Shown: positions 14,321 through 22,840 of the stretch, one piece after another
How the letters are laid out: each line of letters starts with the position of its first letter
How positions within the stretch are numbered: position 1 is the first letter of the stretch
Assembly (NCBI GenBank): GCA_011634665.1
Contig: WAEK01000030.1
Location: 175,001 to 197,840 of the forward strand
Length of the DNA stretch: 22,840 nucleotides
Reading direction: 5' to 3'
Source: Mortierella sp. BCC40632
Taxonomy: Eukaryota; Mortierellomycota; Mortierellomycetes; Mortierellales; Mortierellaceae
Made by a program: the position numbers and the translations under genes
The notes under the pieces: model-generated
What the model saw: only the letters and a program-made list of their open reading frames with translations
Database searches by the model: none
Told to the model about the DNA's origin: nothing

Positions 14321-14542
14321 TGGGTTTCATTCCACGATCTCTACGGTAGTTTGTGCGCAGGGCAAGCCAGTAAAAGATGCGATAATGATTTCCATGCGTC
14401 ACATCGTGCTGAGCTGAGGCTCTAGGACAATGGGCCCTATAATTCTTCTTGGACTGTTTTAGTCAACGGAAAAATTGTACAGCAGTCGATGTCAATTGAC
14501 AGAAGCACTTCTTTTTGATTTGACACTTCGAAAAAAAGATAT
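14321..14542. promoter_or_regulatory. Upstream region of the Methyltransf_28 gene
   Basis: A 222-bp gap between the methyltransferase start and the SWIM ORF stop. It must hold the methyltransferase promoter. No recognised motif. Confidence 0.3.
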
Positions 14543-15180
14543 TTATTGACACTTTCGTCCAGCTCCACTTTCGTTAAGCCCTTTGACCTGGAGGTACGCG
14601 TTGTGCAAAATCGCAATGGTCTCTTGAATGTACTGAAGCGAGCATTTCCTTTTTTTCTTTGCTAAGAGCGCTCGATGAATCTTCTCCAAAAGAGTTGCCA
14701 GGAGCTCTTCGGACTCTTCGAATACCCGCTCGTTCTCTGCTTCTCTTGCAAGTCTTGCAACTTCCATCTTTTCTGATCTCTGTTTCTGGAGCAAGAGTTG
14801 AAGTTGAGGTGAAAGCATTTTCTCCAAAGGGACATCTATATCACGATCGCTAGCGATCGTTTCATTTGCCTTGGACGGGGGTGGATCGCCCGTGTAATCA
14901 ATTTCAACCTCGTGGAAGACCCTTGGTACAAGGTACATGTGCTTGCAAGGTTCCTTGTTCCGAGTGTAATCGCTACACGAACAGGAATAGAGACGCAAGA
15001 AGTCTGGATCCGTGTTGACATGGTATGTCACTCCAACCTCTGCGAAAGACCTGACTTCAAACTACAACAGCACGACTTGTTAGGAGACAATGGCAAGACA
15101 TCGATCAGCAAAGAAAATTATGAAAAAATGGATATCTGAAATGTGGGTACCTTCTTTTCTTGGAACATTTCAGTAACCAT
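14543..15180 (-). CDS. SWIM zinc-finger protein, probably a C-terminal fragment
   Basis: Main exon 15061-14543 (172 aa) preceded by a possible 30-nt exon 15180-15151 starting at an ATG (MVTEMFQEKK), joined in frame by an 89-nt GT-AG intron. The first part is FEVRSFAEVGVTYHVNTD, then a SWIM finger C-S-C-x9-C-K-H (SCSCSDYTRNKEPCKHMYLV). Next come a spacer and a coiled-coil-like helix (LLLQKQRSEKMEVARLAREA). SWIM fingers bind DNA or protein and commonly end MULE/MuDR-type transposases and their domesticated relatives; no transposase core is present here. The TAA stop lies within a minus-strand AATAAA (14547-14542). The ORF begins only 8 nt from the end of the Fanzor-like ORF. It may therefore be the 3' part of a gene whose upstream exons were separated by that element, or a small gene of its own. 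Confidence 0.6.
14843..14860. repeat. Perfect 18-bp palindrome inside the SWIM coding exon
   Basis: ACGATCGCTAGCGATCGT equals its own reverse complement with no spacer. It lies in the codons for ETIASDRD of the SWIM protein. Confidence 0.9.
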
Positions 15181-15184
15181 CTAA

Positions 15185-15218
15185 CAAACTAGCCTAGTTT
15201 GCCCTGCGTACCGCAGGG
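15185..15218. repeat. Two abutting perfect inverted repeats at the end of the Fanzor-like ORF
   Basis: 15185-15201 is CAAACTAG-C-CTAGTTTG (8-bp arms, 1-nt spacer). 15202-15218 is CCCTGCG-TAC-CGCAGGG (7-bp arms, 3-nt loop). Read on the minus strand (the ORF's sense strand), a GC-rich hairpin is followed by 9 nt, then CTAG, then T. This is the layout of a Helitron 3' end (hairpin, about 10 nt, CTRR, target T). The TAG of that CTAG is also the stop codon of the ORF (15191-15189). A hairpin here would also suit the scaffold of a guide RNA. Confidence 0.7.
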
Positions 15219-15804
15219 ATCCCCCATTGCATCTCTAACTGATGTTGGAGGCATAGTAAGTTGAGCTATCTCCTGTGAATATGAACAGGTATGTTTGGTG
15301 GGACGGATTGTCCTTGTAAATGGCTCCAGTGTATGTCTCTCCAGTGAGAGTAGAGTCGACCCTCCTGCTATCGCAATACAAACGGCTGCGTTCACATCCC
15401 GGGACTTGATCGTATGTCCTCGCTGGACTGACCCGCACTGGCTGTTCGTACACTCCATTGCTCCATTCACCTGAACCATCTTTCTCCTTGCCATCCACAA
15501 TCCGACGCGACCGTGCCTTCCTCAACTTGACCAAAACACTCGGCACACGTCTGGCTCGTCCTGAATTCATCAGTAAGTCCAACCACTCCGTACCGCATAT
15601 GCTGCTCTCTCATCTTTCCTCCTCCCCGTCTAGCGTGCCCTCCAATTCTGCTTCCTACTCCCGTTCCTCCCGACCCCACCAGCATCACTGGGATGAGTGA
15701 TGGACCATTCTTGCGACACCGAGCCAGGTGCTGGTAGTTACCCCAGGTACACGCTATATGGTGCCGTTGGCAACCACCACACCGTCCATCTGACGGGGAT
15801 ACCT
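15189..15804 (-). other. Zinc-finger and RuvC-III terminal exon of the Fanzor-like gene
   Basis: The last exon starts after a TTCTAG acceptor (15805) and carries in order CGGCQRHH, a Gly/Arg-rich segment, DEFRTSQTCAECF, ECTNSQC and RDVNAA. Two frame changes lie between the finger halves (about 15555 and 15500). The Glu of DEF next to the finger is where some Fanzors are reported to carry a relocated RuvC-II acid; that correspondence is an inference. Confidence 0.7.
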
Positions 15805-15838
15805 CTAGAACATAAAAAAGAAGAAGTAAAAAAAAAAC

Positions 15839-15872
<34 letters not shown>

Positions 15873-17767
15873 ACATTTTGTTCTGCTCAACTGTACCTGA
15901 TGGGCTCTCTGACCCAAACGTTTCCAATGCGTGATTCTTCACATACTCCCTCTCTGCTGCCGCCACCTTCCCCACACCCTTCTTGTGCGAAGTCGCTGGT
16001 TGTGCAGATCCTTCAACCTTGCCTTGGATTTCTCAAATCCCTTCAATGCTTTGCGTGACTCTCGATGCAGCTCATGCGCCCTGTCAATCTCCTCCATCGT
16101 CTGTGCTGTCTTCAAAACTTGTTCCTTGTCTGAGAGCTTCTCCAGTGCTTCGCGTACATCACTATTCTCCGGTCTCTTAAGTCGCATCTCTCGCCTCTTG
16201 GCTACCCGTCGCATCCCTGAAGCTTCATTGAGCTGAGGTGCCGTGATCTTGAATGGACGACTCTGGGGTGTCCATTGTTCTCTAGAGGCAGTTGCCTCTC
16301 CTGATGACTCCTCATCCGGAGGTGGTGGCCATGGCTCAGGATTAGAGCTCCCAAAGGTTTCCTCCGCATCCTCTTCTGTGCCTATTCATCATTAAAAAAA
16401 GCTATTAGATGCGCTGAGCTTGACAGATGACCGACATTATTCCTTACATCTTGCCCATTCAACTTACCATAAAGTACAGCATATCGGTTGATATGCGTCT
16501 TGATCTCGCCAGGGTCTGTGCACATGTTACACTCATCGTTCGAATCCCTGGATCTGTCCCTGCAAAGACAATTCTGTCCTCTGGCAACTTGGAAATATCG
16601 AGCCGCCTCGTTGAATCCTCGACTGTAAAATCCTTCACAGTAGGTGTGGTGTACTCCACCGCCTTTTGAGCCATCCTTGCTCTTTGGGGTCTTTGCTGTA
16701 ACTACCCTGCGGAGCCCATTCCAGTAACTCCTCTCTTTCCGCAGGCGTCGCAACTGACTCTCCTGTGGCTGTACAGTTGCTCGAAGAGCTCGCACCTTTC
16801 TCCTTGCTTCTTGAAGAACGCGATATGTCTTTTTTTGCTCACTCCCTCTTCCGTCCTCTACACTCTGAATATTGCCCTCATTCGTGTCTACTACCCCCCG
16901 ATGCCTTTCCTTGTTTGCCTTCTCATTCTCTTTTCTGACTGCTGTGCGGTGGTTCTTGGCTGTCAGGCTTTGATCCGTCTCGAGCACCTTGAGTTCCTTT
17001 TCGGCCTCGCTTGATTCTACTCTCAAGGTCTTTGATATTGCTCTCTACTCTCTTGATCTCTTCAGCAATTGTTTCCACTTCCATCTTTTGATACTCTATC
17101 TCTTTGGTCCAGTCCATAGTATCAGTCCTGACCTTGGCCTTGACCCGCCTCTCGTAGTGGCTGAACAACGGGCGACCTCCACGCTCGGCTCCCTGTGGAA
17201 TCACTTCACCCAAAATCCGGACTGTGTACCTATCGACGAACATCATTCTGTCCGCAAATCTGAGGCCATGCTTGCGACACAGCCTTTGAACTTTCTCCAA
17301 GTCGAAGAATGCCCCAAAGACTGCGTCCTTGTGATGTGGGACTCTTTCTCCGGCTATTAGAGGAGTGCCTTCAGAGTTCTTGATATCAAAGTGGCCTGGC
17401 GTCTTGGCACACAACACCTCGTATAACCCCTTCGCTCCAAGAATCAATGCATTACTGGAAGAAGGTGATATCTGCGGTGACAAAAGCCGAGTGTGCTGAG
17501 GATACCCAGCCGCTCTTTGAATTGCGTTGGCAATGATGGCCATAGGTGCAAGCAAAGTAGCGTGGGCCAAGGGGGCGCCCTCGTTCCACCTTGGGGTCTC
17601 GTCTCTCGGCTAACTCGACGTTTTGCAACATAGGGTCGAAGTGCGTTGGCCAGCTTGGCTACAACACTGCATTGCTCCTCGGTGATATCCATTCCGCCGT
17701 GTGCTGACTTTCTGACCCAGTTGTTGTCGATTTCCTTCTCGATTCGGGGTGACTCTAGGAGCATACG

Positions 17768-18181
17768 AAGAAGTCTCCTCAAAGACAATATGATCGCTCT
17801 TGTTGGCTCTTTAGCGAGAGAATCCCCTAATTCGTTTTCTAGTTCTTCCTCCATCTCATCGAGATCCCAGTCGTCGAAATCAGACCCTTCGAGATTGTCA
17901 GAGTCCTGATCTTTGACAGTTCTCCTTTGGGTCACACCATTGTCCTTGTTGTTCACCTCAACCACCGGCTCTTTGACAAAATCTTCCTCCGGTTCTTTAA
18001 TGTCCCAATCGTCAAAATCAATCCCTTCAAGGTCGTCCGTATTCAGGTCTTCGACGGCTCTCCTTAGGGCTTGAATACTGGATTCACCGCCCGCCTCGAC
18101 TGTCGGCTCTTTGACAGGGTCACCCTCCAGTTGGCTAAAATCCCAGTCATCAAAATTGACCCCTCCGAAATTGTCCGTATC
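17768..18181 (-). repeat. Three tandem 138-bp (46-codon) acidic repeats with an FDDWD core
   Basis: Copies at 18181-18044, 18043-17906 and 17905-17768, in one uninterrupted frame. Each has FDDWD at repeat positions 10-14, preceded by D/N-(T/S)-D-(N/D)-(F/L)-(G/E)-G, and copies 1 and 2 share VKEP. The core motif recurs at exactly 138-bp spacing with no indel, unlike the frameshifted surroundings. Confidence 0.9.
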
Positions 18182-18229
18182 CAGATGTTCGAGTCGGACA
18201 TCCAGTGGTTCAAAACATTCCGCCCCAGC

Positions 18230-20331
18230 GGTTTTGGGCTGTGTACTTGTGAGCCAGGATGTATTCAATCCTGTGCAGGACCGATTGAATCCGTTGCCCA
18301 TCTCCGGTTGGGTCTTTGTCAAGAGCACGGTTGAGATCATCGCAGAGCACCAGGATTGTCCGTTTCCATCTACTCTTGCCTACAGTTGCATTCTTGGGAT
18401 GACTTTTTTTTTCTTTCTCGTGGCCTGACGACTTGAGTTTTCTCTCTCTGCTTTTCGCTCTCTCTCTGGAGCCAGATGGAGCCGCAATAGAAGCAAGAGA
18501 GTGTGATCGAAGCTTGTCATACATCTGGCCTCCCCAAAAGGTTCTCGATGTTTGTAGCCATTTGCTTCAAGTGCTCACTAACAGTACTTGAACGGCCTCC
18601 AACATCTACTGAAAACTTGCTTTTGCCCGATGCGAGGTTACCGACCACACTGCTCCAGACCTGTCGCCTGGCTTTGTTCGCTGCGTTAACTCCTTGAGCT
18701 CCGAAGAACCAAGAATACATGAACAGGAGAAAGCTATACGACATTAGAGTTGTCGTGTCGCTCTTTCTCTCGGCTTCCAGGTGCTCTGGCAAAAGGTCAG
18801 GAAGGGCCGCAACTGGGGAGCAAGGACAGGACAGTCTTGTCCCGAAACTCGAATCCTGCCGGAAAGACCGACTGGATGTCAAAGGCCATCTTGGTAGATG
18901 GATTGATGTAGTGAGTCCCTGATGCGAGCTAAAAAAAAAAAAAAAGGTGATATTCATTTGTCAGTAATAGAAAAAAAAAAAAAAAATAAAATAAAAATAA
19001 AAATGCAGAGCCATTACCTCATGAACCGCCTTCGTAGCCAGCACCGAGATTTCCTCACAAACCACCGTCATAGCCTCTTGACTTTTCTCTAGGAGAATTC
19101 GGATTCTCTCTTTGTCCTCTGTACAAAGATCAGGCCGAAGAACTTGCTGAAGTGTGGCTGTGCGGGATCGGAGCTGTCTCTGATCGGGTCCAGTCTCTTC
19201 CTCCTCCATCTCGTAATCACCATCGCTGCCACCATCATCGCCATCACCGTTTCTTCCGCTTCCTCTCCTACTACTACTACCTCTTCCTCCTCCTCCACTT
19301 GTTCTAGCTGCCGTATCGACTTTTTATCGTTCGAGTCGGCGCGACCCTTCCCTTTAGACAGCTTTTTGGTCTTGGCCTCTTCTTCTGCCTCCCATAGTGA
19401 CTGAAAGTTTGCTTCGAGGTAGCTGTTCCATTGGTTGACGGTGCCGTCCTTCCCCAATTTTTTGTCCATAGTAGTCCTAGAAAGATCTCGGGCGGCCACG
19501 TTGGAGGCTCTTATGGTATCGAAGGCGGACTTTTGATGCATAGAGGAAGTCTCTTTGTTGCAATAAGAGACTGGTAGGCTTCCCCTTTGTCTTTGCCCTT
19601 TAAGATGCTTCCTTTAATGCGGTTTGCTATGTAGTCATGCCTGCACAGTATCAAGTGGAGAAGCCATTAGATACACCATGCTTTATGAGGCTATTTCTGC
19701 TATCGAGTACTTGAAAAGTACATGTTTAAACATTTACCTTGCTTTTTTGAAGGCTTCCTGGATATCAGCGTCCGCAGGATCGTCTAACTTCCGTTTTTTA
19801 AAACCGCTATAGGTTCTTGGGCCTGTGCGGTAGACCGCCGAGGGAGTAGCGGCTATGGTATGGCTGGGCTGGAGGTTCTCCTGGGGTATGTTGTTGGACC
19901 GAGTAGTTCTTGGATGGCACCAATGCCAAACACTCCCTCGTCCCAAGGTAGGAGTCAACGTGTTGAAGAATACCGATTGACATTGTCGAGTCTTCGCTCC
20001 TGAAGACCTTTGTCTTTTTTCGGGTGGAGAAGACAAAAATGTCAACGTGTAGCCCTGATGACAATAGTCGGAAATGCAGGTTGCTGTGGGGTGGGATGTC
20101 AACTGATGTGTCTCCAATGGTAAGAGTGAATAGAGGGTTTCGAGATGCAGTGTTATTGAGAAGACTTTGCACGATCGATGTTGTCGCTGGTACCCGAGAT
20201 GTTTCAAGTGGAGCCATGTCGACGACGATGCCCTGTCGGCAGAGTGTCTCCATCGTACTTGCCCTGTTTTCCAATTGACAGTGGTCAAGGGACAGAGTAC
20301 TCTCCAGTCTGGGTGCAAGAGCAGGGGTCAT
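18230..20331 (-). pseudogene. Probable N-terminal half of the Fanzor-like gene, frameshifted, function unknown
   Basis: Open minus-strand segments run from ATG 20331 (MTPALAPRLESTLSLDH) through NPLFTLTIGDTSVDIPP, a basic stretch (FKKRKLDDPADADIQEAF), IKGSILKGKDKGEAYQSL, KDGTVNQWNSYLEANFQSLW, a Glu/Asp- and Gly-rich linker, LLEKSQEAMTVVCEEISVLA, LFMYSWFFGAQGVNAANKAR and CDDLNRALDKDPTGDGQRIQ. Two GT-AG introns join cleanly: 19737-19641 (97 nt) and 19017-18929 (89 nt). Frame changes are needed near 19900, 19560, 19280, 18800, 18530 and 18230. I do not recognise a domain. Same strand, no gap, the same short intron size and the same indel pattern suggest one gene with the RuvC half. A separate neighbouring gene is the alternative. 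Confidence 0.5.
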
Positions 20332-20995
20332 GCCTCTCTAGCATGCTCCTCCAGACTCTCAAGAGTCCTGCGCTGTGATCTCTCTTTGCAAAAAGAATAA
20401 TTCAGTGTTGACTCTAAAAGAGCAAAAACGATGTAGTAAATATTTAGCAAGGTGTCAAGTTGAACTGTTGGGGTCCTTTTTTGTGCTTTCTTTATTCTTT
20501 GCCCTACCATGATAAAAAAAAGGAAGAGAGAGCGTGTATGTGTGTAGTAGTGTATGTGTATAGTGTGTAGTGTGTAGTGTGGATTGTGGATTGTGGATTG
20601 TGGATTGTGGAGTGTGGAGTGTGTGTGTGTGCAAGGAAAGAAAAAGGTCAAGTTCAAGCAGAGCTCTCTTCTCTCTCTTCTCTCATTGTTGAATCCTCTA
20701 GTGCGCTGCACTTTGCATCTTCTCACTTTTAATTTGTCGGTGCCAGAATGGCGCTGGGAAAATATGAATCATTCTTTTCCTCACGCTTCAGGGGGACCAT
20801 GCGCAGTGCACGGTCTTCAAACTGACATAATCATGAACTGTATGGAAAGAGAAGAGGAGAGAGAGAGAGAGAAACTTTTGAACACACATTCCTCAGACTT
20901 AAGCTGTTCGTTATGTAGTAGCTCTATTTTTGCATAGCTGTGGCACGCAGGACCAAGCACTTGTATTCAAACTCCTGCCCTTGCTGAATTGAACA
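20332..20995. other. Upstream flank of the Fanzor-like locus with simple repeats
   Basis: No gene recognised. The likely promoter of the Fanzor-like locus would lie at 20332-20520, followed by the GT-rich array and then AG-rich sequence (about 20846-20873). Confidence 0.4.
20533..20633 (+). repeat. GT-rich simple array with GTGGATT heptamers
   Basis: Imperfect GTGTAT/GTGTAGT units grade into repeated GTGGATT heptamers, GTGGAGT and then (GT)n. Typical slippage-generated simple sequence. Confidence 0.9.
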
Positions 20996-20997
20996 TT

Positions 20998-21435
20998 TCT
21001 CAAATTGACCTCTTTTCTAAATAGTCCTTTTTTCAAATCCTACTTTTCCTCGAAATAGTCTTTTTTTTTTCAAATCCTACTTTTTCTCGAAATAGTCCTT
21101 TTTTCTAAATAGTCCTTTTTTTCAAATCCTACTTTTTCGAAATAGTCCTTTTTTCTAAATGGTCCTTTTTTTTCGATATAGTCCTTTTTCAAATACTACT
21201 TTTTCTAAATAGTCCTTTTTCAAATCCTACTTTTTTTTCTAAATAGTCCTTTTTTCAAATCCTACTTTTTCTAAATAGTCCTTTTTTCAAATCCTACTTT
21301 TTTCAGAAATAGTCCTTTTTCAAATCCTACTTTTTCGATATAGTCCTTTTTCAAATCCTACTTTTTCGATATAGTCCTTTTTTCAAATACTACTTTTTCT
21401 AAATAGTCCTCTTTTCTGAAATAGTCCTTTTTTTT
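20998..21435 (+). repeat. AT-rich minisatellite, about 31-38 bp units
   Basis: Alternating motifs AAATAGTCC and CAAATCC(A)TACT separated by T runs, with about ten copies of the CAAATxCTACT motif and about fifteen of ATAGTCC. Units differ by T-run length and by CTAAAT, CGAAAT or CGATAT variants. Confidence 0.9.
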
Positions 21436-21467
21436 TTTGGGTCTGTCCGACCAAAGTGGGATGAAAT

Positions 21468-21491
21468 GAGAGAGAGAGAGAGAGAGAGAGA
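21468..21491. repeat. (AG)n microsatellite
   Basis: About eleven AG dinucleotides just right of the minisatellite. Confidence 0.95.
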
Positions 21492-21563
21492 ATAGGGATG
21501 GACACCGTTTTTTCAGAAACCTACTTTTTTTATTTCTTTTTTTTTCTTTCAAACACCAAGTGT

Positions 21564-22082
21564 TTATTGATTAGCTTTGCATCGACCCATTAGGGCCACC
21601 AATGTCTCAAGTTGCTTGTTGCAATGGGAAGGAGTGAGGAGAAAGACTGCTGCCAAAAAGGTCAATAGGAAGAGGTGACCAGGTGTCTCAACATGTGCCC
21701 TTTTGAGTCTGTGTTTCACCAATTGGATTAGGTACTTTTCTTGAATCGCCTTCACCCCAGTACCTTGATTGCTAGCTCCTCTTTTATTCATGGCACTCTT
21801 GAAGTTCCATCTCAGGTTCTTCATGTTTCGGCTTAGTGAGTGTCGCTGGTCGTCCTGGTCCGAGTGGCAGTCGCTAATGGCTTTGAATCGGCCTTGATCG
21901 TTCGCCCTGCTAGAGTCGTACCACCACACCAGTGCCCGAGCAAACGCCTCTACTGCCTGCTTTCTTGCCTGAGGGTCATTGATATCAATTCCATGAAAGA
22001 CACTGTACCTGTCATGTCCTACTACTGTACATGGTCGAGAAAGCATGCCGACGCATAGAGAAACAGTGCGAAGCGAGGGCAT
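21564..22082 (-). CDS. Hypothetical protein, 172 aa or C-terminal exon of a larger gene
   Basis: Open frame from ATG 22082 to TAA 21566-21564, with the stop inside a minus-strand AATAAA (21568-21563), which supports a real transcript end. I do not recognise the family. Visible: GHDRYSVFHGIDINDPQARK, AVEAFARALVWWYDSSRAND, a basic middle, and a hydrophobic segment LFLLTFLAAVFLLT near the end that could be a membrane helix. The frame continues upstream of the ATG (NQLEDP) to a CAG that could be a splice acceptor, so the protein may start further upstream in the repeat-rich DNA. Composition is protein-like rather than simple sequence. Confidence 0.45.
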   Translation of the reverse strand: MPSLRTVSLCVGMLSRPCTVVGHDRYSVFHGIDINDPQARKQAVEAFARALVWWYDSSRANDQGRFKAISDCHSDQDDQRHSLSRNMKNLRWNFKSAMNKRGASNQGTGVKAIQEKYLIQLVKHRLKRAHVETPGHLFLLTFLAAVFLLTPSHCNKQLETLVALMGRCKANQ

Positions 22083-22375
22083 GGGATCCTCAAGTTGGTT
22101 CTGAGTAATCGATTAGAGATGTCTGAGAGAACCCGACTACTCGGTGAAAAGGAGCCCCTCTCGGGTCTGCGATACCTTTTTGGGATGTATAAAGATTAAA
22201 AGGTCTACCCCACATGGAGTGAGAAAATGATTACGATTGCAGCCGCTATTACAAATGTTCAGTCACCACCACCACCACCACTATTCACATTGCAATTGCA
22301 AGGTTTGCTAAAGTACCCTTCAGGATGGAAAAGAATAGAAGAAAGTTTCTTATTCCGGTTAATGGCCAATGACCG
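22083..22375. other. Intergenic DNA, nothing recognised
   Basis: Contains a short ACC trinucleotide run (about 22266-22280). No supported gene. Confidence 0.4.
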
Positions 22376-22506
22376 GTGCTCCGATCTTATACCTTCTCAC
22401 AGCACTCCGATCTTATGCCTTCTCATAGCGCCTTCTCATAGCGCCTTCTCATAGCGCCTTCTCATAGCGCCTTCTCATAGCACTCCGATCGTATGCCTTC
22501 TCGTAG
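22376..22506 (+). repeat. Tandem array of a 13-bp unit in a higher-order repeat
   Basis: Five copies of GCCTTCTCATAGC in tandem (about 22417-22481), flanked on both sides by copies of CACTCCGATC(T/G)TATGCC, so the 13-mer expanded inside a larger duplicated unit. Confidence 0.9.
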
Positions 22507-22531
22507 CACGCACGTAGCACATTACACGCAG

Positions 22532-22790
22532 GACACCTACGGCCGAATAAAGAAAGGGCATGTTGTAGCAGACAGCAGAACAGGTAGCAAAAGAAGGGCA
22601 GGTAACAGCAGAGCAAACCAGAAAAGGAAAAGGGGGGATTTTCTATCAGGTGACGCGAAACTCAGATATTTCTTTAGTATTTTTAGTATTTGTTAGATTT
22701 CAAACAGACACCTACGGCCGGAGAATAAAAGGAAAAGGGGGTTATTTTCTGTCGGGTGACCCGCGAAACTCCCGGATATTTCTTTGGTAT
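22532..22790 (+). repeat. Diverged direct repeat pair at the right end
   Basis: GACACCTACGGCCG at 22532-22545 recurs at 22707-22720. GGAAAAGGGGG...TTTTCT followed by GGTGAC, CGCGAAACTC and GATATTTCTTT at about 22625-22680 recurs at about 22731-22790. In the left copy about 75 bp of GTAGCA-rich sequence separates the two halves. It may be part of a dispersed element continuing past the window. Confidence 0.65.
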
Positions 22791-22840
22791 CTAACAAATG
22801 CTAAACAAATGAAAACAAATATAAAGAAATCTAACAAATA

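Follow-up and report, generated by a model that had tools for sequence, protein, structure and literature searches.

A decayed Helitron in a Mortierella genome probably carries a giant, divergent Fanzor-family gene that overlaps a candidate omegaRNA

What Fanzors do for transposons is an open question. It is raised by a Fanzor-like gene on the minus strand of a 22,840-nucleotide stretch of the genome of Mortierella sp. BCC40632 (49.9 Mb, 62 contigs): what carries this gene, what does it encode, and which RNA might serve its product? The stretch, called the window below, is C30:175001-197840 and reaches the contig end (C-numbers denote contigs, L-numbers loci and P-numbers protein relatives). 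We put the probability at roughly 0.64 that it holds a decayed copy of a recent non-autonomous Helitron with a giant, divergent Fanzor-family nuclease, for which a three-hairpin omegaRNA would direct cutting guided by the flank of the element. The initial annotation of the window had proposed an RNA-guided endonuclease of an uncommon TnpB-Fanzor branch, carried by a transposon in a fungus. Family membership, host, branch and transposon carriage are all borne out; that annotation made no mention of the Helitron carrier, the broken state of the copy, the rearranged catalytic glutamate or the RNA at the gene end that resembles a guide scaffold.

The boundaries of the element identify its carrier. 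Homology among copies ends at 15189 and 22697, and the flanking DNA differs between copies. A DNA search with positions 14400-19700 (40 of 108 candidates were scored, and copy counts are lower bounds) found at least 21 other copies of the 4.5-kb 3' gene part at 97-99% identity, plus one at 86%, with alignments terminating at about 15189. The 5' half was found in one piece at 12 other loci, at 92-98% identity and reaching about 22690. The element starts with TCTAACAAATACT after an A and ends with CCCTGCGGTACGCAGGGCAAACTAGGCTAG before a T. At the 5' end, TCTAAC follows the A in the window and in 11 of 17 other listed ends; five copies, all at one repeated site, have TTTAAC after the A, and one further copy is fused head-to-head. 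The 3' end consists of a perfect 7-bp hairpin, then CAAACTAGGCTAG, then the host T, the hairpin lying 9 nt before the CTAG and 13 nt before the last element base. A T follows CTAG in all 19 readable 3' ends, which represent about 14 distinct sites; the L008/L034 locus has an altered 3' end. A 25-mer around the hairpin has 54 genome matches at up to three mismatches, and its control has none. No terminal inverted repeat (TIR) or target-site duplication (TSD) was seen by eye at the element ends. Helitron1 elements insert between A and T. With its 5' TC, 3' CTRR, hairpin and insertion between these two bases, the element is of the Helitron1 type, for which 5'-TC, CTRR-3' and one 3' hairpin are described (PMC3627910). 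No RepHel was recognised within the element, and each of the 23 PF14214 matches in the genome lies more than 10 kb from every one of the 54 hairpins (lists compared by eye). We read the window copy as one decayed member of a recently amplified non-autonomous Helitron whose single recognised cargo is the Fanzor-like gene.

The features of the gene are listed in Table 1; the TAG at which it stops lies within the CTAG that closes the element. All five motifs of the initial annotation were located on the minus strand in the claimed order, spanning 16566-15384; they are spread over three frames because of introns and frame lesions. The span first given, 15189..18236, lies within the gene and covers only part of it: homology extends to about 20319, and the element to 22697. 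Compared with its siblings, the window copy has a broken frame: set against the majority in each column of 13 copies, it shows 20 or 21 indels that affect the frame, a count that is indicative only (the 38-40 stops per copy arise from phase slips, and stop counts were discarded). In the near-intact sibling L010, an open exon of 844 aa precedes two more exons, and reading through three introns and one extra base gives 1331 aa, with GTDPG from residue 935, then TDEFRTS, CxxC...CxxxxC and RDVNAA. The full protein is longer than this because tblastn of relatives places N-terminal homology as far as 20319. The long coiled coil of the initial annotation matches a confident long helical hairpin at about residues 256-358 in a model of the relative P0004, from which the coiled-coil assignment in the large exon is taken.

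Table 1. Features of the element and its cargo gene in the window
Feature	Position	Strand	Remarks
Non-autonomous Helitron-type element, 7.5 kb	15189..22697	-	shared copies; homology stops at ends; flanks differ
Minisatellite, TTTCTAAATAGTCC-like units	20996..21433		5' half of element
N-terminal coding region	19843..20319	-	homologous to P0002 residues 38-206; tblastn 36% identity, E 4e-22
Coding region upstream of poly-T intron	19018..19541	-	holds protein start used for L010 read-through
Large exon: conserved helical region, long coiled coil, RuvC-I	16468..18928	-	GTDPG within 16534-16566; frame-broken here
FAGTDPGIRTM	16566-16534	-	
Exon with basic helical segment between RuvC-I and zinc finger	15897..16381	-	ITAPQLNE...RTRRVWGKV
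Last exon: CxxC-HH region, GSRIGG, alternative Glu, zinc finger, RuvC-III RD	15189..15804	-	
GSRIGGHARRGG motif	15655-15620	-	
Alternative catalytic Glu, TDEFRTSQTC	15574-15545	-	
TSQTCAECF	15559-15533	-	
ECTNSQC	15455-15435	-	
RDVNAA (RuvC-III RD)	15401-15384	-	
Candidate omegaRNA scaffold	15201..15294	-	overlaps last codons; same fold in diverged members, covariation, covariance-model matches
H1	15289-15285/15276-15272	-	
H2, 1/3-nt internal loop	15251-15221	-	
H3	15218-15202	-	
Hairpin CCCTGCG-GTA-CGCAGGG	15202..15218	-	Helitron 3' terminal hairpin and third hairpin of candidate omegaRNA
Terminal CTAG	15189..15192	-	host T at 15188

Eleven protein relatives were found. Eight could be assigned, to Mortierella alpina (two), Lunasporangiospora (two), Modicella, Actinomortierella, Entomortierella and Dissophora; Lunasporangiospora and Modicella are Mortierellomycetes by taxonomy look-up, and we take the others to belong there too. 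The remaining three relatives are JGI proteins. Together they form a divergent family whose named members are all Mortierellomycete fungi. Segments of P0004, from L. selenospora, recur in the present genome at up to 95% identity. Five of eight annotated relatives are 1451-1599 aa long, the others being 754 (partial), 802 and 905 aa, and two of the five long ones are fused to other domains. Annotated fusions are to PF13671 and PF08645 in P0005 and to a DDE-type domain in P0007, and they may be annotation artefacts or insertions. In a 35-row alignment, 30 of 34 rows are 30-59% identical to P0004 and four are 74-90% identical, and the catalytic positions hold across groups, with DYG replacing DPG in some. 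The ratio of nonsynonymous to synonymous substitution rates (dN/dS) is 0.19-0.50 between lineages (seven comparisons) and 0.52-0.99 within the recent burst (three comparisons), with values of 0.47 for L058/L057 and 0.81 for L051/L052 among other close pairs; these ratios come only from codons in stretches with an identity of 35% or more and so lean towards conserved parts, and L023/L060 were saturated and gave no value. The family is under purifying selection between lineages. From this selection and from the counterparts of the five motifs, in the same order, in family members, we consider that the motif set is not a product of chance.

Is the protein a Fanzor? The RuvC-I motif reads GTDPG in the window family, P0001, P0002, P0005 and L059, GTDYG in P0003, P0004, P0006, L023 and L033, and GTNFG in L060, and is missing from the P0007 annotation. 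The alternative RuvC-II glutamate stands exactly six residues before the first CxxC (E-FRTSQT-CAEC in L010) and is present in 18 of the 19 rows shown, the remaining row, P0007, having a gap. The rearranged glutamate and DPG are Fanzor signatures in the account of Yoon et al. (PMC10711439). A zinc finger followed by RD (CxxC...CxNxxC...RD) is found in most rows that reach this region: L057 has lost the first zinc-finger cysteine, P0002, P0007, L052 and L060 stop or diverge before RD, and the window copy retains the zinc-finger and RD letters split over two frames. The profile search that the initial annotation had proposed as a check came close to failing, as PF07282 (Pfam TNB) matched at 17.0 bits (E 0.0068), below its cut-off of 26.3, and three of ten relatives matched at E up to 1 (best 0.022). 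Membership is supported by the catalytic layout and by a profile-profile comparison of the family C-terminus with nine PF07282-carrying proteins, seven of them from named Mortierellomycetes, which we label ordinary Fanzors. Built from eight of 12 C-termini, with near-duplicates and truncated pieces left out, the family profile scored 44.2 (E 1.8e-5 for one comparison, probability 78%), compared with at most 25.2 in 200 column shuffles and 22.0 for the reversed profile; all 12 C-termini with P0006 untrimmed scored 46.8 (E 4e-5). On its sequence features we place the protein in the Fanzor family, as a divergent branch, which would imply RNA-guided cutting. The ordinary Fanzor family is itself abundant in this genome (L001-L007; 48 PF07282 matches genome-wide). 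The copies that we read often have D-L-G at RuvC-I. A motif resembling TTCGGTGACGTAAT, which may belong to an omegaRNA of their own, follows the stop in L002, L005 and L007. In one scan of viral contigs for viral relatives, 28 stretches fit the pattern and none was confirmed.

The gene ends in a structured RNA. A covarying stretch of three hairpins shares its sequence with the final codons of the gene in diverged members of the family, with a codon phase that differs between groups. Folded one at a time, nine of 14 regions adopt three hairpins as their minimum-energy structure. When nine regions were aligned by sequence only, 91.7% of cells at the paired positions were paired, as against 34-44% with slid partners, and none of 500 shuffles reached so high a value. 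In a model-fitted alignment, 12 of 17 base pairs change on both sides. A covariance model, R1, built from two groups, recovered this site in further groups and had no match elsewhere in 176 kb. It also had no match in the ordinary Fanzor loci searched in the same genome, L001 and L003-L007, and Rfam gave no match in the window at gathering thresholds. The three-hairpin structure is conserved and constrained as RNA, and it is a strong candidate for an omegaRNA scaffold.

Short copies of the Helitron retain this structure. All five such ghost copies that we checked at their 3' ends (L002, L065-L068) have one common deletion, which joins 20804 to 15346. Of the gene only the final 158 nt are left, and the whole three-hairpin stretch is kept along with the 3' end. 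These copies lie at five different insertion sites. L002 appears rearranged at its 5' side.

These features suggest how the nuclease and the Helitron may work together. By analogy with known systems, transcription would run out of the Helitron past CTAG and the T that follows it, giving a scaffold of roughly 94 nt followed by the final 12 nt of the element, perhaps the fixed T, and then a guide from host flank. The ribonucleoprotein would cut the matching empty (uninserted) site on a sister chromatid, donor or allele, which would favour retention and spread of the element, and a RepHel protein supplied in trans would perform the rolling-circle step. The bacterial IS200/IS605 elements offer an inferred parallel in TnpA, an HUH enzyme, paired with TnpB, in that a single-strand HUH route is coupled to a flank-guided nuclease; they differ in having a compact TnpB, the canonical glutamate position and the transposase in the same element. 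We offer only tentatively the further idea that one structure serves two machines, with the omegaRNA scaffold doubling as the Helitron 3' end and the nuclease stop codon as the terminal CTAG, such that each insertion would arm the nuclease with a new flank as its guide; this is possible rather than probable.

The three hairpins might instead be an mRNA 3'-end signal or a Helitron replication terminator, and the Fanzor-derived protein might have another role, for example in regulating transposition. The third hairpin does occupy the position that a Helitron hairpin requires in this element. Moreover, a splice-donor-like GTRAGN lies within about 10 nt 3' of the structure in L053, L057, L051 and L017, which represent four groups outside the Helitron of the window (L062 is without it), and it may mark RNA processing or a continuation of the gene. 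However, a single hairpin, rather than three, is what a Helitron terminator requires, and in the L053 group the same three hairpins are followed by about 100 nt of further homology, up to an end unlike that of a Helitron. The aspartate, glutamate and aspartate are also retained in diverged members. We regard this alternative as unlikely, although credible enough to be kept in mind.

How much of this is already known? Fanzor1 genes have been described as Helitron2 cargo in Chlamydomonas (CRe-1, CRe-2 and CRe-3; Bao and Jurka 2013, PMC3627910). From that description, these elements resemble the present one in having an intron-bearing Fanzor-type gene in a Helitron without its own RepHel, over-represented 3' ends and copies with internal deletions; they differ in being Helitron2, with a 5' hairpin, a TTTT target and often TSDs, whereas the present element has Helitron1-type ends, insertion between A and T, a fungal host and a very long protein. 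Spu-1, with its SpuFz1 from Spizellomyces punctatus, is likewise a fungal Fanzor1 with an omegaRNA at the right end and many elements that retain the omegaRNA region without a Fanzor ORF, but it is a 2.1-kb inverted-repeat element whose omegaRNA follows the stop codon (Saito 2023, PMC10432273) and whose protein is a single ORF of 633 aa (PMC3627910). The reRNAs of SfAV and related Fanzor1s also have three stems, no pseudoknot and a transposon end within the scaffold, and SfAV shares DPG and the alternative glutamate, which are general Fanzor features; unlike the present element, it has a compact protein of about 600 aa, a TIR element with TSD, and viral and lepidopteran hosts (Yoon 2023, PMC10711439). 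Fanzor1 RNAs reported for SpuFz1 and SfAV cover the transposon right end and about 14-15 nt of the flank (PMC10432273, PMC10711439), and Saito et al. noted that Helitron carriage would parallel the peel-and-paste, cut-and-copy cycle of TnpA/TnpB (PMC10432273). A full-text search of the open-access literature found no paper on Fanzor with Mortierella and four on Fanzor with Helitron. Judged by that literature, what appears new is how large the protein is, its carriage by a Helitron of the Helitron1 type, the shared structure at the terminus, and the family as such.

These precedents also allow a plainer account, in which the gene is ordinary Fanzor1 cargo with an N-terminus inflated by annotation, and the RNA is the omegaRNA expected of any Fanzor. 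The Chlamydomonas Helitrons fit this account, as does the GtFz1 omegaRNA, which overlaps 17 C-terminal codons (PMC10432273), and among the relatives are the two long fused annotations and the protein of only 802 aa. Published Fanzors, however, are 400-700 aa long in the reports drawn on here, with some Fanzor1s reaching about 800, as against a read-through of 1331 aa; the further N-terminal homology is in order and on one strand; and the RNA model has no match at the ordinary loci. We consider this account improbable. That the protein is no Fanzor at all, but an unrelated zinc-ribbon protein with look-alike motifs, would suit the lack of a match above the Pfam cut-off or a significant one in PDB sequence searches, but is very improbable given the profile-profile score, the exact E-x6-CxxC spacing with D-P/Y-G upstream, the transposon carriage and the structured 3' RNA.

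Several results weigh against the favoured explanation of a Helitron-borne Fanzor with its own omegaRNA. PF07282 stayed below its cut-off in all members tested. The RuvC part was of low confidence in both AlphaFold2 models of P0004 (11 rows, mean pLDDT 49; 35 rows, mean pLDDT 61), and the structure prediction that the initial annotation had called for thus resolved a RuvC core in neither. The 50 matches shown for each fold search (Foldseek and VIA-align) were coiled coils (PI3K p85, axonemal proteins and the like), which we take as uninformative, and included no Fanzor, TnpB or Cas12 chain. Of two PDB sequence searches, one gave no match and the other two (E 0.49 and 2.6), nothing significant. 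For the RNA, the ends of the 14 separately folded regions were chosen after the hairpins had been noticed, and the folds are not blind; L025, L057, L058 and L061 lack the three-hairpin fold by minimum energy, and L056 has it only nearly. The folding energies of L062 and L057 are not unusual. Model R1 missed L025 and L008 and scored the window family at only E 0.66-0.72. A search for one joined-flank pattern of an empty site gave no match, and no cognate RepHel was found. The one RepHel Helitron examined, compared in two copies (L063 and L064, on C9 and C5), has a different 3' end, with the hairpin GAGTGCCCG.. and CACTTG before a T. Finally, every other copy compared has frame-affecting indels of its own, 4 in L010 and 6 to 22 in the rest. 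Because each of the 13 compared copies has such indels, some may be unpolished assembly errors in repeats, and for the window copy true decay and assembly error are inseparable.

The copies also record where the element has inserted. Six Helitrons of the window type (L017-L020, L023, L036-L038 and L042 on C12, C6, C2, C9 and C1, and C18:1055952) lie at one place in a P0004-type Fanzor-like gene, just after RuvC-I and apparently in an intron. C18 excluded, five 5' flanks and four 3' flanks at this site are each 96-98% identical, and probably one Fanzor-bearing element nested in another and was amplified with it as a unit. Seven further copies (L039-L041 and L043-L046), several near contig ends, have a common 5' flank that is 77-99% identical, near-identical in its last 220 columns, while the element starts are 90-99% identical. 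Flanks more diverged than elements are a poor fit to composite amplification, and this set may reflect either a shared composite or repeated insertion at one site. RNA-guided targeting was considered for the same-site insertions, and amplification or exchange of a composite was preferred as simpler. Short window-type Helitrons also lie inside or adjoining ordinary Fanzor genes at L002 (C12:1329.9 kb) and L008/L034 (C5:2062.9 kb), two cases unexpected by chance on a rough estimate, although both kinds may share repeat-rich regions. The RepHel Helitron of L063 and L064 sits in an apparent Gypsy-type coding sequence (read by eye). Around the window copy, a SWIM zinc-finger ORF (14546-15061; PF04434, 23.5 bits, above cut-off) flanks the Helitron. 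It suggested a MULE carrier, which was rejected because copy homology stops at 15189. Next to another Helitron copy, at C6:2616578 (L032), this flank recurs at 99% identity, the pattern that an allelic or duplicated relative with one fewer insertion would give. On the other side, positions 22698-22840 resemble the 5' end of a diverged Helitron (read by eye), and it seems that an older Helitron, at the contig end, was the insertion target of the window copy.

Why does this family matter? It extends Fanzor-type proteins well beyond about 800 aa, and similar branches have probably been overlooked, as the members tested fall below the standard Pfam threshold. If the tentative idea of one structure serving two machines is true, the element would be a eukaryotic transposon that joins an HUH enzyme to an RNA-guided nuclease, a counterpart of IS200/IS605, and its gene-less ghost copies would be extra sources of guides for nuclease made in trans. 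The Helitron-Fanzor parallel becomes testable with this fungal family, which was active recently, includes near-intact as well as ghost copies, and offers a candidate omegaRNA along with many natural flanks that would serve as natural guides.

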